In this document: piece after piece, positions 8,480 through 20,790 of the stretch
How the letters are laid out: the number at the start of each line of letters is the position of its first letter
Position numbering within the stretch: position 1 is the stretch's first letter
DNA from: a virus
DNA length: 22,161 nucleotides
Reading direction: 5' to 3' (one strand)
Virus record (IMG/VR): IMGVR_UViG_3300033153_005765
Span: 1 to 22,161 of that record
Program-made: the position numbers and the translations under genes
Notes under the pieces: generated by a model
Databases searched by the model: none
What the model saw: only the letters and a program-made list of their open reading frames with translations
Told to the model about the DNA's origin: nothing

Positions 8480-11023
8480 TTATTTAACTATAACAGGCAT
8501 TCAGTTTGCTGTATATTTAATTTTAGGCATTTTATATTTCATTCATACATTTGGTTGAAGTTCATATAAATATAAAAGCATTTGAAGTCAATCAGGACAA
8601 TCATCATGTCTTCATCTAGGAAATTTCAATAACTGAGACTCAAGTTTTTCTCATCTCATATCTTCTTTATGGTGTATTAGTCAGTTTCTATATAAAGGAA
8701 TTAGTGATCTTATTTTTGCTCATTTATCTTCCTTTTGTCTAATTTCTACAATTTCAGTTTTGTATATTCATTCTTTTTTCAATCTTCTCCTCAAAGAAAA
8801 AGTAATTGTAACCTGAGCCGCTATTGATTCAATTCAGATTTTTTCTGGATTCCATTTCTTGATATGATTCACCATTATATCCTCTAGTTCTGCTGGGTCA
8901 TATTTTCAAACAGTTTGTTCCAATATGTACATCTCATCTCAAACAAATTTAGCTGTAGTTACAACACTGTCATCAGCAGATTTCTTTTTACTAAAAGCTG
9001 GGTCAGTAGTGGTAAATATTCTTCATTGTTCACTAGGTGTTCATTTATAATACTTAAACCATTCTTCATGAAATTCTTGATTCTCTTTAGATATAGGATC
9101 TTGTTGATATTGACACGAAAATATTAATTCTCTTCATTTTCTAATCTTAGCAAGAACCTCTAAATCAAATCTAGCAGGAAACAAAGCTTCTCATATTTCT
9201 CTTCATACAACCCTTCAATCAGAAAGAGTAAACTCCTCTTTTTCTTCAGCTATTGCTGGTAAATTTACTATATCCCATTCATCTCAAGTTCAGTCATCCA
9301 TTTTTTCTCTTAGGAATCAACATAGGTCATTATCATGTAATCTTTGCATAATAATTATTATTGAATCTTTTTTAGGATTATTTAATCTTGAAACTACTGT
9401 ATTTTCAAACCAGTTATTGATTCAGATTCTTTTTATATCAGAATCTACTTCATCTGGTTTTAGTGGGTCATCTACTAAGAAGATTGAAGCTCACCTTCAA
9501 GTTATGGATCAACCTGAACCTGTTGCGTAATAACTACCTCATGTTTCTAATTTCCAATAATCTTTTGTATTCTGACTATCTTTAATTTTGGTATTTCTAG
9601 GAAAAATACTATTAAATCATTTTGAATTATAGTAATCTCTAGCTTCAGAAGAAAATTCTTGAGCTAGAGTTGCAGAATAAGAAGTAGATATTATTTCAAG
9701 ATAAGGATTACTTCATAAAGCCCAAACAGGAAAACATTTTGTAATTAGCTCGGTATTATGAGTAGGGATATATGATTTTCAAACAAGATACAAATGATCT
9801 TTATTGTCTACTTGTATACATTTTCAAGAAACAGAAGGTATCTTGTTTATTGAAATAATAGCATTTCTTCTATATAAACATTTTTTTACATTTTTTTGTT
9901 TTCTAGGTAAATGAGAAAAAATATCCTCTACATAAGGAGAAAATCAAACAACATAACATTGTTTTGTATCTTTTATAATATAACCATTTAGTAATCTATG
10001 GAATGTATTAATTTTTGGTTTATATTCTGTAATTCTAAATCATAAAGAGGAAACTAATTCTTTTACTCAGTTAATTATATTGATATTTGTATTAATAAAT
10101 CTAATTCTTCAAGATTTATCAATACTTCAATCACTATCTATTAACCCTCTTAGTAATTCCATTCTATCCTCAATATTTGATTGAAGATAGATATTAGGAA
10201 TATGTTTATTATTCAATAATTCCAATTTTCTTAGTTTTGTAGCTAATCATTTGAAATATTGAGTTATAACTCAAGTTGTTTTATGTTTGATTCTATATCA
10301 TAACTCAAATCAGAAATCTTTTTTTAAAACAACATCTAAATCTTCTTCACACATATTTAATTTTCAATCTGCAGAAGTTCAATCTCATAACCATAATCAT
10401 AAAAGATATGGATTGATAGATAAATTATTCTTAATGTATTCTACTGGTTTTGTAAAATCTACTAAGAATCTATTTCATTTACCATCCTTTCTGATTAATC
10501 AATCATTTACCATTGTTTGAGTATCTATTGTTCTGTATTTATTTAAACCTTTATCAAATACAGTCCATAAATGCTCTTTATGTGCTTTAATTACTCATTT
10601 ATTAGCAAATGTAACCTCTAAATCTATATCGTTTGTAGTTTCACTACAATGAGTTACAGTTGTAATTTTACCATCAATTCAAAATAACTTATCTCAAATC
10701 TGTAATTCTCAATGAGTTTTATATCATTTAATTGTAGGTATTAAAGTATCATTCGATATTTTTTTTCAATGTCTTGGTGGAAGGTTTATCATTAACCTAT
10801 TTACCTTTCATTCAATAACACCTTTTAATTTATCTGCTATTAAATCATAGTGCCAATTACTATCAAAATCCCTATTTTTTTCAGCTTTAAAGAATCATTT
10901 CATAAAAGAGATAAGATTATCCCTTTCATCTGTAGTTTTCTCTTCTAGAGCCTTTAAAATGATTTCTTTCTTAATTGCATCTTGAGCTAAATTCTTTTTA
11001 TTATTTCTTTGTCTGAAAGCCAT
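8480..11023 (-). CDS. Terminase large subunit, interrupted by an intein
   Basis: An 847-residue precursor starting MAFRQRNNKKNLAQDAIKKE. The exteins (87 and 424 residues) join to a 511-residue terminase of usual size. The Walker A motif PPRHGK (residues 82-87) is split after Lys by a 336-residue intein and resumes with TELITKCFPVW. Walker B is SIFLVDDPLKP (first Asp near residue 518 of the precursor). The nuclease part shows TTTDPAFSKKKSADDS (first Asp near 674), IGIESIAAQ and a C-terminal HDDCPDGLQMLL with the last acidic site. It cuts and pumps DNA into the prohead. The first 23 bases overlap the 3' end of a small upstream gene. Most glycines are UGA. Activity requires splicing, because the intein breaks the ATP site. 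Confidence 0.92.
9755..10762 (-). mobile_element. Intein with LAGLIDADG endonuclease in terminase (candidate class 3)
   Basis: 336 residues inserted between Lys and Thr of the terminase Walker A. The N-terminal block KISNDTLIPTIKG begins with Lys rather than Cys or Ser. The C-terminal block reads CIQVDNKDHLYLVGKSYIPT then HN, followed by extein Thr. Trp66 (in HKEHLW), Cys315 and Thr334 match the Trp/Cys/Thr triplet that marks class 3 inteins, which use the internal Cys in place of residue 1. Two dodecapeptides are present, YLLGLWLGDGTSADG (about 119-133) and ELLRGLIDSDGSID (about 202-215); both acidic catalytic residues are kept, so homing activity is plausible. UGA encodes 22 of its 27 glycines, so it is adapted to this code. 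Splicing and homing are inferred from motifs. Confidence 0.9.
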
Positions 11024-11252
11024 GTTTATTTTGTTTATATCATAAAGCTGCATCTAACTTCGCTGAAGCATTTTTAAACATTCTAAATATACTATTATTA
11101 AAAAAACTTATATTTCATAAAGTTATATAACTTTTAGTTTTTTTAAATCATCTCCATTCATGTATTACTATATTGATATCATACCTACCTAATAAATGAT
11201 TAATTAAATATAAGGTAAATAATATCATAACCATACTTCATAATATTAACAT
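11001..11252 (-). CDS. Small membrane protein overlapping the terminase start
   Basis: An 83-residue protein. The N-terminal 22 residues (MLILGSMVMILFTLYLINHL) form one hydrophobic helix, followed by a basic, soluble tail with RGFKKTKSY and KNASAKLDAALGYKQNKHG. It starts 10 bases after the stop of the large zipper protein and its last 23 bases overlap the terminase gene, which supports translational coupling. Four UGA codons are read as Gly. I recognise no family; position between an ejection-type protein and the terminase gives no firm clue. Confidence 0.6.
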
Positions 11253-15814: not shown

Positions 15815-16939
15815 TTAAGTTTTAATTATATAATTTATTACTAAATATGGTTGTAAAATATTATGTGAAGCTCATCATCAAGAAACTTGTATCATTGTTG
15901 TATTGACAGTATCATTAGAATTTTTACCCATAGTATTTCAAGCTGAAGAACTTGCAGATAGATAATTTGTAGCTCATATTGCCTCATTTGATAATCAACT
16001 TCAAACTAAAACATTATGATTATGTGATGGTATTTCTCCTGTTGTAAGTGTATGTGTTTCTGTACCTCAAGTATCTCATAACGCATTAAATGTAGCTCAA
16101 TCTTTACCTACTGGTGTATTACCTGTTAAATCTGGTATATTAAATGTAGTAGAACCATCTCATACTCAATAAGTAGTTCATATTACTGCAAATAATATAG
16201 CATAAGTAATCCTATTAATAGCACTTCAATCAGCTATTAACCAAGATGCTGGAGGTGTGTCAATAGTCCATAATTTTAATTCTCAAGGTATTCATATATA
16301 AGAAGCTCAGCCTATTATTTTATCAGCTCAAAAAGTTAATTCAGCTCATGTTCATCAAGTAGTTACTTGTGTATTAAATTCTGTTTGCGTTCACATCTCA
16401 ACCTTACCAGCTACAGCTTCACTTGCATTTGGAGTAGATCAAGTTGCTCTGTTAGTCCAAGTTCAACCTATATAATCTGTAAATAATCATAATGAAGTTA
16501 CGTATACTTGCATTCAATTAGTTGGAGATGTTATAACAGCGTCTCTAGCTGTTTCGTCGGCATAAATAACTCATAATCAGTCATCTGCATCTATTTTACT
16601 ATTTATAGCATCTTTAATATTTTTCCAGAATTGATAATTATTGGAAATTATCAATGTAGAGTTTACAGGATGATCTTGAGCAGTAGAATTTACTCATGCT
16701 CATTTCTCTAATGTAATATTAGAAACATTTAATGTTTTTAATACAGCATCATAAGAATCTATCTCAGCTATTTGGATATTATCGTTCTTAGGGTTTATAA
16801 CAATAAAAGTAGTTTCTCAAACAGGAAATGTAAAGTTTGGAACTTTATTTACGTTTACAGTTCAAAGTTGTCAATCGTAAGACTGCGATAAACTGGTTTC
16901 AAATCAATCTTCTAAAGGTATTGAAGTTAAATTAGTCAT
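15815..16939 (-). CDS. Tail-collar-domain fibre protein
   Basis: A 374-residue protein starting MTNLTSIPLEDGFETSLSQS. The N-terminal half is beta-rich. The C-terminal half is a textbook phage tail collar domain: PASWLIADGSAINRITYAIL, FAVIGTTYGVGDGSTTFNIP, DLTGNTPVGKD, the metal-site type motif EIPSHNHN, and the closing HNILQPYLVINYIIKT. 34 of its 43 glycines are UGA and they fall on the invariant glycines of the domain (DGS, GTTYGVGDG), giving independent proof of the code. It follows directly after a candidate tail-junction protein and probably forms a short fibre or collar element of the virion. Family assignment is strong; exact place in the virion is inferred. Confidence 0.9.
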
Positions 16940-18521: not shown

Positions 18522-19199
18522 TTAATTAAAAGTTCTTCTAGAAATTCTTCTTGTTGGAGACCTATAAGAATTTTTATATTGTAATTGATTTCTATCAGGT
18601 AATAAAAACGCATTATATAATTTACTTATCTCTCATTTATATCTTTTATCAAATTTTATTTGCGCCCTACTAAAGTTCTTGGCATCTCCAGGCTTTGTAA
18701 GTAAAGCATATGATGCAAATAATACTATAGCTCTATCAAATTGAAGAGAAAAAGGACTTAAATCAGCATTATCAGTTAGTGTTGGTAAAAATTTTCTATA
18801 AGTTAAGTCAATATCTCATATTATTGTAGTAATTGGTGTCAATTGTAGTTTTCAACCAAAAATAGAATAGTTAATTGGTGTTCATGATGGAAAAGATGAA
18901 TAAAATGCTTTTAATTCAATAAAATCAGCTGAATCTAATTCTTTTCAATCAATTTTAACAAGATCAGCACTTTGAAAATCATCAGGCAAATCATATGCTT
19001 GTTGATCAGGAACTGAATCAAACAGAGGAAAAATATCTCTATTTTCAGACCATTTAAAGTTTCAATAGTTTTGAACCTCTAATATAGCCTCATTTATAGC
19101 ATCTGTTAATTCATCGTCGTTCCAGACGCGTCAAATCTTGTCTAATTTCATTTCCAGTCTTGTTTTTGACCTTAATTTCGATAATGATGTATTTGCCAT
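18522..19199 (-). CDS. Head-tail adaptor (connector) protein
   Basis: A 225-residue protein starting MANTSLSKLRSKTRLEMKLD. The segment RVWNDDELTDAINEAILEVQ is the typical helix of P22 gp4/SPP1 gp15-type adaptors, followed by WSENRDIFPLFDSVPDQQAY and YDLPDDFQSADLV. The C-terminal part is helical (LLTKPGDAKNFSRAQIKFDK) and ends in a basic tail (SPTRRISRRTFN). Such proteins bind under the portal and start the tail. It is the first gene of the structural operon, downstream of a terminator and a candidate promoter. Assignment rests on motif style and context. Confidence 0.7.
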
Positions 19200-19658: not shown

Positions 19659-19910
19659 CTAATCTTTAAAAGTAATAAATTTCACAGCAGCCATTTGAGC
19701 AGTTATACAAGCTCTAATTGCCATTCCTCTGAAAGTATTTTTTAAATATGAATCTCTTTTTTCGTAAGCATCTCACAAATCGTGCTCATGAATAATATCA
19801 ATCAAAGAAGCAAATGCTCTCTTGATTTTTAAGGCTTTATCGTCTCAAAATGTATTAAAAGCAACTCCTACAGCTTGTTCTCAAAAAGTTTGTTCAGTAT
19901 TTTCAGGCAT
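19659..19910 (-). CDS. Acb2-like cyclic-nucleotide sponge (putative anti-immune protein)
   Basis: An 83-residue protein starting MPENTEQTFGEQAVGVAFNT. The order of motifs fits the Acb2 family: an N-terminal FGEQAVGVAFN turn, a helix KALKIKRAFASLIDIIHEHD, and a C-terminal helix FRGMAIRACITAQMAAVKFI followed by TF. Known Acb2 proteins are small phage proteins that form compact oligomers and bind cyclic di- and trinucleotides, blocking CBASS-type signalling. The C-terminal AQM-AVK-IT segment and the N-terminal GxxxVGVxFN are the clearest matches. Its position in an accessory cluster of tiny genes is usual for anti-defence genes. Family call is from recalled sequence patterns and is not tested; binding residues were not checked one by one. 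Confidence 0.6.
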
Positions 19911-20331: not shown

Positions 20332-20559
20332 TTAAAGGCTATTCAATAGTTCTTGTTTAGATCAAAATAAGTAACTCTCATTAAAAGTTTTTCATTCAGA
20401 CATTCATTTAGTGGTTTTGTAGTTTATTTCAAATATATTTTCAATATAAGAATTTTCTGATACTTTTACTTCAATTATTGATATTGTAACAGTTTGTACT
20501 TTATTATCTTCCATGTAGAATACTTTTTGATTTATATTAAATTTAGTATTTATTTCCAT
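20332..20559 (-). CDS. Small accessory protein with SKQELLNSL tail
   Basis: A 75-residue protein starting MEINTKFNINQKVFYMEDNK and ending NESYLFGSKQELLNSL. The beta-type N-terminal half with a ... LFxSKxELLxSL ending is a pattern widely seen in tiny phage proteins of unknown role. Three UGA codons are Gly. It starts 3 bases after the stop of the coiled-coil gene at 20563, so the two are coupled. Confidence 0.65.
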
Positions 20560-20562
20560 AAT

Positions 20563-20790
20563 CTATTCATTAAATTCTATAATACTCCCTGCAATCTTTT
20601 TTATATCCTTTGTTAATTCAGCTACCCTTTTTACTTGTGCCTCCTTTCTTTGTAATATAGGACAAAAAGAACCTGTATTCATTATGTCAAGTAATTGAGT
20701 ATTGTAATCTTTAACCAACACCTCAGCTTCTTCTTTTTGGATTTTTAACTTTTCCTTTTCTTTTTTAAGGTTCTCTAAATATTGGTTCAT
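20563..20790 (-). CDS. Small coiled-coil protein
   Basis: A 75-residue protein without any UGA: MNQYLENLKKEKEKLKIQKE ... ending IAGSIIEFNE. A heptad pattern of Leu/Ile/Val with Lys/Glu runs through residues 1-30 and 45-70, broken by the CPILQRKEAQ turn, so it may form a helical hairpin. It opens the small-gene cluster, directly downstream of the structured stretch at 20814-21031. No family recognised. Confidence 0.7.
   Translation of the reverse strand: MNQYLENLKKEKEKLKIQKEEAEVLVKDYNTQLLDIMNTGSFCPILQRKEAQVKRVAELTKDIKKIAGSIIEFNE

Follow-up and report, generated by a model that had tools for sequence, protein, structure and literature searches.

A probable Acb2-family cyclic-oligonucleotide sponge in a phage that reads TGA as glycine, with recoded CBASS operons in Gracilibacteria-class genomes

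Background

Acb2 (anti-CBASS 2) is a phage protein that sequesters the signal molecules of bacterial CBASS immunity. Two phage proteins of the Acb2 family have been proven by experiment, namely Acb2 of PaMx33 (p26; PDB 8H2J, 8H2X, 8IXZ and others) and Vs.4 of T4 (PDB 7UQ2). The published Acb2 architecture is a short helix followed by two long helices, whereas Tad1, with which it shares the hairpin domain named in PF24729, carries an N-terminal antiparallel beta-sheet (PMC12043709). In T4 Vs.4, the cGAMP contacts are Y8, H11, K23, R79 and F82, and the hexamer interface includes L29, A66, A73 and A77 (PMC10097602). Homologues of Vs.4 make up the group PHROG_717 (Jenson et al. 2023; PMC10097602).

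Among bacteria, genetic code 25, in which TGA encodes glycine, is confined to certain ultra-small lineages. Phages that clearly use this code have been predicted for both Absconditabacteria and Gracilibacteria (Liu et al. 2023; PMC10746230). That study mentions neither CBASS nor Acb2, and a groundwater survey (PMC12259885) covers the defence of CPR bacteria broadly, with CBASS named as an accessory family. No report of Acb2 or CBASS in the Gracilibacteria lineage was found in the literature searched, in keeping with the view of an earlier note on this DNA that such immunity is little described there.

Results and discussion

A phage window that reads TGA as glycine

The window, by which we mean the whole stretch of 22,161 nucleotides analyzed, clearly belongs to a code-25 phage. 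With the standard code, open reading frames of at least 100 aa take up 8% of it; with TGA read as sense they take up 85%. TGA accounts for 299 of the 402 glycine codons (74%) in its main genes. The terminase, the SU10-type adaptor and the tail collar protein are recognized solely from code-25 reading frames. A search of IMG/VR for relatives of the major capsid protein found none. The features that place the acb2-like gene in its phage context are as follows.

8480..11053, minus strand: terminase large subunit with an intein, LAGLIDADG homing endonuclease (PF14528, PF05204)
15815..16939, minus strand: tail collar protein (PF07484 and PF21939), whose C-terminal half matches Gracilibacteria-class tail genes
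18522..19199, minus strand: head-tail adaptor, SU10_adaptor (PF24175), which marks the phage context
19285..19491, minus strand: downstream co-directional small ORF of 68 aa with no assigned function
19659..19910, minus strand: acb2-like gene, 83 aa under code 25, ATG start and TAG stop (ORF, tblastn, leave-one-out profile, AF2 model)
20332..20559, minus strand: upstream co-directional small ORF of 75 aa matching phrog_25586 (unknown function; E=2e-7)
20563..20790, minus strand: upstream co-directional small ORF of 75 aa, probable coiled coil

The terminase intein sits within the Walker A motif, between PPRHGK and TELITK.

Under the standard code (table 11), the ORF at 19659-19910 is broken by three in-frame TGA codons, and it is open if TGA is sense. 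The coordinates that the earlier note had given for an Acb2-like protein are exact, with the gene on the minus strand and TGA necessarily sense, and both the FGEQAVGVAFN start and the AQMAAVKFITF end that it had claimed occur in the code-25 translation of 19659-19910 (minus strand):

MPENTEQTFGEQAVGVAFNTFGDDKALKIKRAFASLIDIIHEHDLGDAYEKRDSYLKNTFRGMAIRACITAQMAAVKFITFKD

The three TGA codons fall at these places in the protein.

19881..19883, minus strand: Gly10, in an alignment column that is G in 63/64 members
19845..19847, minus strand: Gly22, in the loop of the FNPSGD-like motif (ORF and alignment)
19773..19775, minus strand: Gly46, in the turn between the two long helices (ORF and model)

Membership in the Acb2 family

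The protein itself has no match in the Pfam, PHROGs, PADLOC or NCBIfam libraries; it does not reach the gathering cut-off of PF24729, nor does it match that model at E<=10. A phmmer search against the PDB returned nothing relevant, and the sole match of a profile search of PDB sequences, a designed repeat protein, was set aside as spurious. The link to Acb2 is instead transitive. Its tblastn relatives in Pasteurella phage Pmp11 (E=3e-7) and Phage DSL-LC05 (E=7e-6) score 42.5 and 40.4 bits with the PF24729 model ('Acb2/Tad1, hairpin domain'), whose cut-off is 27, and both also match PHROG_717. Among the 599 pattern matches listed from IMG/VR, at least 516 relatives were confirmed; the best 80 of these were kept, and 63 of the 80 were aligned with the window protein to give 64 members. 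PF24729 is matched by 41 of the 64, which match no other Pfam family, and PHROG_717 by 40. We therefore read the missing PF24729 match of the window protein as a limit of the library model, given how divergent this member is.

A leave-one-out profile, built from the 63 relatives with the window protein excluded, scores that protein at 88.3 bits when TGA is read as Gly, compared with 81.6 bits when it is read as X and 78.0 bits when it is read as Trp; the Trp reading was rejected on this score. The best of 994 shuffles of the protein reaches 6.6 bits and the reversed protein 0.9. No other ORF of the window goes beyond 2.7 bits, and among 9192 ORFs taken from shuffled windows the top score is 7.2. 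Separate IMG/VR alignments were then made around the two experimentally proven proteins. By hhalign, the window family matches the PaMx33 Acb2 family with a probability of 91% (E 1e-6, score 37.1), and the T4 Vs.4 family more weakly, over the last helix only, with a probability of 48% (E 2e-4, score 27.5). The maxima over 200 column shuffles are 22.3 for PaMx33 and 17.9 for Vs.4, and reversed profiles also score lower. These comparisons support the assignment of the window protein, from its sequence, as a divergent member of the Acb2 family. The likeness to Acb2 on which the earlier note had rested thus holds through intermediate relatives and profiles; of the HMM search that it had proposed, the family profile joins Acb2 and the direct Pfam search of the protein does not.

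Its closest named kin form a subfamily that includes Pasteurella phage Pmp11 XYO02252, Phage DSL-LC05 WJZ48178, Enterobacter phage EcP1 gp26 and a protein of Providencia phage PS3. The window protein resembles these in length and in the frame GE(K/Q)xVGxxFN...K..xA..I(D)...A...AQMxxVKxxT(W/F), at 33-44% identity. It differs in reading TGA as Gly and in having FNTF in place of FNPS and Ala rather than the usual Trp at position 74, and it falls short of the PF24729 model itself.

Predicted fold and conserved residues

An AF2 model computed on the alignment has helices at residues 9-14, 24-45 and 55-80 (mean pLDDT 86.4, pTM 0.76), that is, a short helix and two long antiparallel helices with no strand. 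The predicted fold has the Acb2 architecture. Identity with Tad1 was rejected, as the model of this 83-aa protein has no beta domain. Foldseek found no significant match in the PDB, the list being dominated by DgkA helical proteins, and we take this outcome as neither favouring nor opposing the assignment. When the PDB candidates were re-ranked, 7uq2, the T4 Vs.4:cGAMP complex, came first (Z 6.9, rmsd 5.6, 70 aligned residues), with unrelated helical chains such as DgkA close behind at Z 6.4 and the PaMx33-type Acb2 8h2x below it at Z 5.7, so this ranking is supportive and not decisive alone. In BFVD, which contains predicted viral structures, the top two matches are annotated as Acb2/Tad1 hairpin (E 3e-3 and 5e-3, probability 1.00), and the next has E about 1. 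In the structure comparison suggested beforehand, the model has an Acb2-type fold and the BFVD matches agree with it; the PDB search was not significant, and 7uq2 did not stand apart from DgkA and other helical chains.

Eight residues are invariant across the 64 diverse phages, including those aligned with the contact Lys and Arg. The profile alignment places K30 on Vs.4 K23 and K77 on Vs.4 R79; both residues are basic, and each is unchanged in 64/64 members. F18, also invariant in the family, falls on Vs.4 Y8 in a low-confidence global profile alignment. The interface positions L29, A66, A73 and A77 of Vs.4 correspond in the profile alignment to L36, A64, A71 and A75, all identical in the window protein. 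In contrast, the Vs.4 contacts H11, S74 and F82 are replaced by F21, Q72 and T80, and the profile alignment with Vs.4 covers only the C-terminal helix. PaMx33 Acb2 likewise lacks the equivalent of F82 in the profile alignment. With PaMx33 Acb2 the window protein shares the short N-terminal helix and the two long helices, a basic residue and a Met in the last helix, and the family's conserved Lys, which aligns with PaMx33 K26 as well as with Vs.4 K23; K26 is a cGAMP-contact residue. Identity to PaMx33 Acb2 is nevertheless only about 11% over the aligned part, the loop is three residues shorter, and the N-terminal motif is VGxxFNPSGD in the window family as against GYRDLSQEEI in PaMx33. An unlike fold or the loss of the nucleotide-contact residues had been named in advance as evidence against Acb2; the model has an Acb2-type fold and K30 and K77 are kept, while two contacts are uncertain.

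Recoded cyclic-nucleotide immunity genes and the proposed role

The host-side sample was centred on a Gracilibacteria genome recognized by an EF-Tu pattern that contains TGA, and comprised 288 genomes of its class. In 19 of the 288, the SMODS synthase domain (PF18144) is over cut-off, and four of these loci are plainly code 25, with 7, 13, 21 and 11 in-frame TGA codons in the synthases and with coding of 7-31% under the standard code compared with 81-98% when TGA is sense. The four TGA-recoded CBASS operons, all from Gracilibacteria-class genomes, are as follows.

L131: contig C18 of genome G214
L132: contig C29 of genome G237
L133: contig C17 of genome G152
L134: contig C7 of genome G242

All four synthases match PADLOC oligonucleotide-cyclase models (best E 1e-181), and one also carries an AGS_C sensor domain. 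The active-site Gly of the GS motif is itself encoded by TGA in 4/4, and the DxD and the later Asp are present. Among the neighbouring genes, G214 and G237 have matches to transmembrane CBASS effectors, and G152 and G237 have matches to E2 (ubiquitin-transfer) proteins; the operons of G152 and G242 further contain small proteins whose N-terminus is hydrophobic, noted by position only. LexA/S24-type regulators adjoin two of the operons by Pfam, with a similar ORF at a third, and one operon lies within a type I restriction locus.

Four class genomes (L252 in G226, L253 in G072, L254 in G071 and L255 in G158) have a Cas10 palm domain that contains 3-9 in-frame TGA codons, which points to type III CRISPR-like signalling in TGA-recoded genomes. 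One class genome has mCpol over cut-off, in a gene without in-frame TGA. Given the recoded synthases and Cas10, cyclic-nucleotide immunity genes exist in bacteria with the TGA=Gly code. The earlier note had asked whether hosts with very reduced genomes may use such immunity and had proposed a search for CBASS genes in Gracilibacteria and Absconditabacteria; for TGA-recoded genomes the search is positive, and the recoded operons of the matching class speak for its conjecture. A search of the 288 class genomes with the Acb2 profile found no member, and the same profile, as a positive control, does find TGA-coded viral genes. This implies that the gene is phage-borne and unseen in the sampled genomes or prophages.

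We consider it likely that this is the gene for a divergent Acb2-family sponge, carried by a code-25 tailed phage. Such a protein adds a divergent member to a known family, in an unreported setting, and is not a new kind of system. During infection, six of its helical hairpins would come together in a hexamer, which would sequester, without cleaving it, the cyclic oligonucleotide made by the CD-NTase of a host CBASS system; it might also take the cyclic oligoadenylate of type III CRISPR. The ligand would most likely be held between paired hairpins, with F18 available for base stacking and K30 and K77 for the phosphates. With the ligand kept away, the membrane-killing effector would then stay off.

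That an Acb2-fold sponge here serves mainly against the cyclic oligoadenylates of type III CRISPR, or against another host cyclic nucleotide, and not against CBASS seems unlikely, though the recoded Cas10 genes of the four class genomes lend it some weight, as does the finding that Acb2 has a separate site for cyclic trinucleotides such as cA3, for which its affinity is higher than for dinucleotides (reviewed in PMC12043709). Against this, CBASS-type synthases are commoner in the class (SMODS in 19/288 genomes vs Cas10 over cut-off in 7/288), and the invariant Lys, aligned as it is with the cGAMP-contact Lys, speaks for retention of the dinucleotide site.

Gene neighbourhoods of the family

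In several unrelated phages (the window, L002, L003 and L004), the acb2-like gene shares its strand with adjoining genes for the terminase, the portal or internal virion proteins. Structural neighbours on the same strand would suggest late expression, as opposed to the early expression expected of an immune antagonist; the timing of sponge action is a step that we infer. A hairpin-family protein that has lost sponge function or never had it, for instance a small virion-assembly or scaffold protein, would fit the head-tail genes that adjoin the gene in the window, the virion genes beside its relatives and the several Vs.4 contacts that are not conserved, and no biochemically tested member of the GEKAVGLxFNPSG subfamily was found. 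We regard this as rather improbable: the eight residues invariant in 64 phages include those aligned with the nucleotide-contact Lys and Arg, and the family is patchy, with gene neighbourhoods that differ among phages, as one would not expect from a core component of the virion.

Host of the phage

The presumed sponge would act in the cells of Gracilibacteria or Absconditabacteria, which the phage very probably infects, to judge by its code and the similarity of a tail gene. A code that needs a TGA=Gly decoder points to such a host. No tRNA gene was found on the window contig, so the host probably supplies the TGA-decoding tRNA, although the contig may be a fragment. The C-terminal half of the tail collar protein is ~47% identical over ~164 aa to TGA-rich tail genes of Gracilibacteria-class genomes. 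Other whole-window DNA matches were low-complexity and AT-rich and were disregarded; only the tail-collar matches hold at the protein level. Portal relatives were sought in the 288 class genomes and none were found, a weak negative run with no positive control. As neither Acb2 nor portal relatives appear in the 288 genomes, the link to the host rests on the code and one tail gene. The description of the window as a CPR phage in the earlier note is thus favoured by code 25 and the shared tail gene.

Infection of an ordinary bacterium, or of several hosts, with the sponge countering the CBASS of that host and not of a CPR bacterium, has in its favour that other bacteria, too, have spacers matching some predicted Absconditabacteria phages, including two that clearly use code 25 (PMC10746230), and that the closest named relatives of the protein are from Gammaproteobacteria phages. 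It is nonetheless quite improbable, as a phage with 74% of its glycines written TGA needs a UGA tRNA-Gly, which the host must supply unless it lies elsewhere in the phage genome, and as the tail gene is common to the window and the TGA-rich Gracilibacteria-class genes. The notion that the acb2-like ORF is an artefact, prompted by its three in-frame stops in table 11, is refuted by recoding that runs through the whole window, by the 88-bit profile score with TGA as Gly, above that with Trp or X, and by the fall of the TGA at position 10 on a conserved glycine.

Further recoded Acb2 genes and their setting

Because a glycine written TGA is missed by ordinary back-translation, IMG/VR was scanned with a pattern demanding TGA at Gly10. 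Four contigs matched, three of which encode clear Acb2 relatives; the fourth, L094, is a chance match. The further TGA-coded Acb2 genes are these.

L091:2773-3057, IMG/VR contig
L092:5482-5730, IMG/VR contig
L093:265-492, IMG/VR contig

Two of the three homologues pass the PF24729 cut-off, with 39.5 and 47.1 bits, and the third falls slightly short at 24.9. Reading TGA as sense raises coding from 25% to 83% in L091 and from 27% to 82% in L092, as in strongly recoded DNA. Protein annotation under code 11 would miss all three genes. In a poorly resolved tree of 67 short proteins, the four recoded Acb2 sequences form one group in 0% of bootstrap trees, and the starred branches force at least two changes, so recoded phages probably acquired Acb2 more than once, within the low resolution of that tree.

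Since bacteria of the same rare code carry CBASS genes, an arms race between CBASS and Acb2 probably exists in the little-studied TGA=Gly lineage too. We lean, with some reserve, towards a broader reading, namely that both cyclic-oligonucleotide immunity and the phage antidote to it have entered this lineage, that recoded CBASS operons defend ultra-small, probably host-dependent cells, and that recoded phages acquired Acb2 on at least two separate occasions to disarm them. The arms race would then extend to bacteria whose genomes are highly reduced and whose genetic code is rewritten, and the question of why a tiny, possibly host-dependent cell keeps an abortive-infection system becomes testable, as the named pairs of recoded synthase and recoded sponge can be synthesized and tested in E. 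coli.

In an Acb2 homologue from a standard-code phage contig (L020:6001-6243), a TAG interrupts the frame close to the end (VK*ITWKN, compared with VKYITWNN in relatives) and may be a truncating mutation. This TAG is of interest because T4 escapes Panoptes through loss of Acb2 (PMC12657218).
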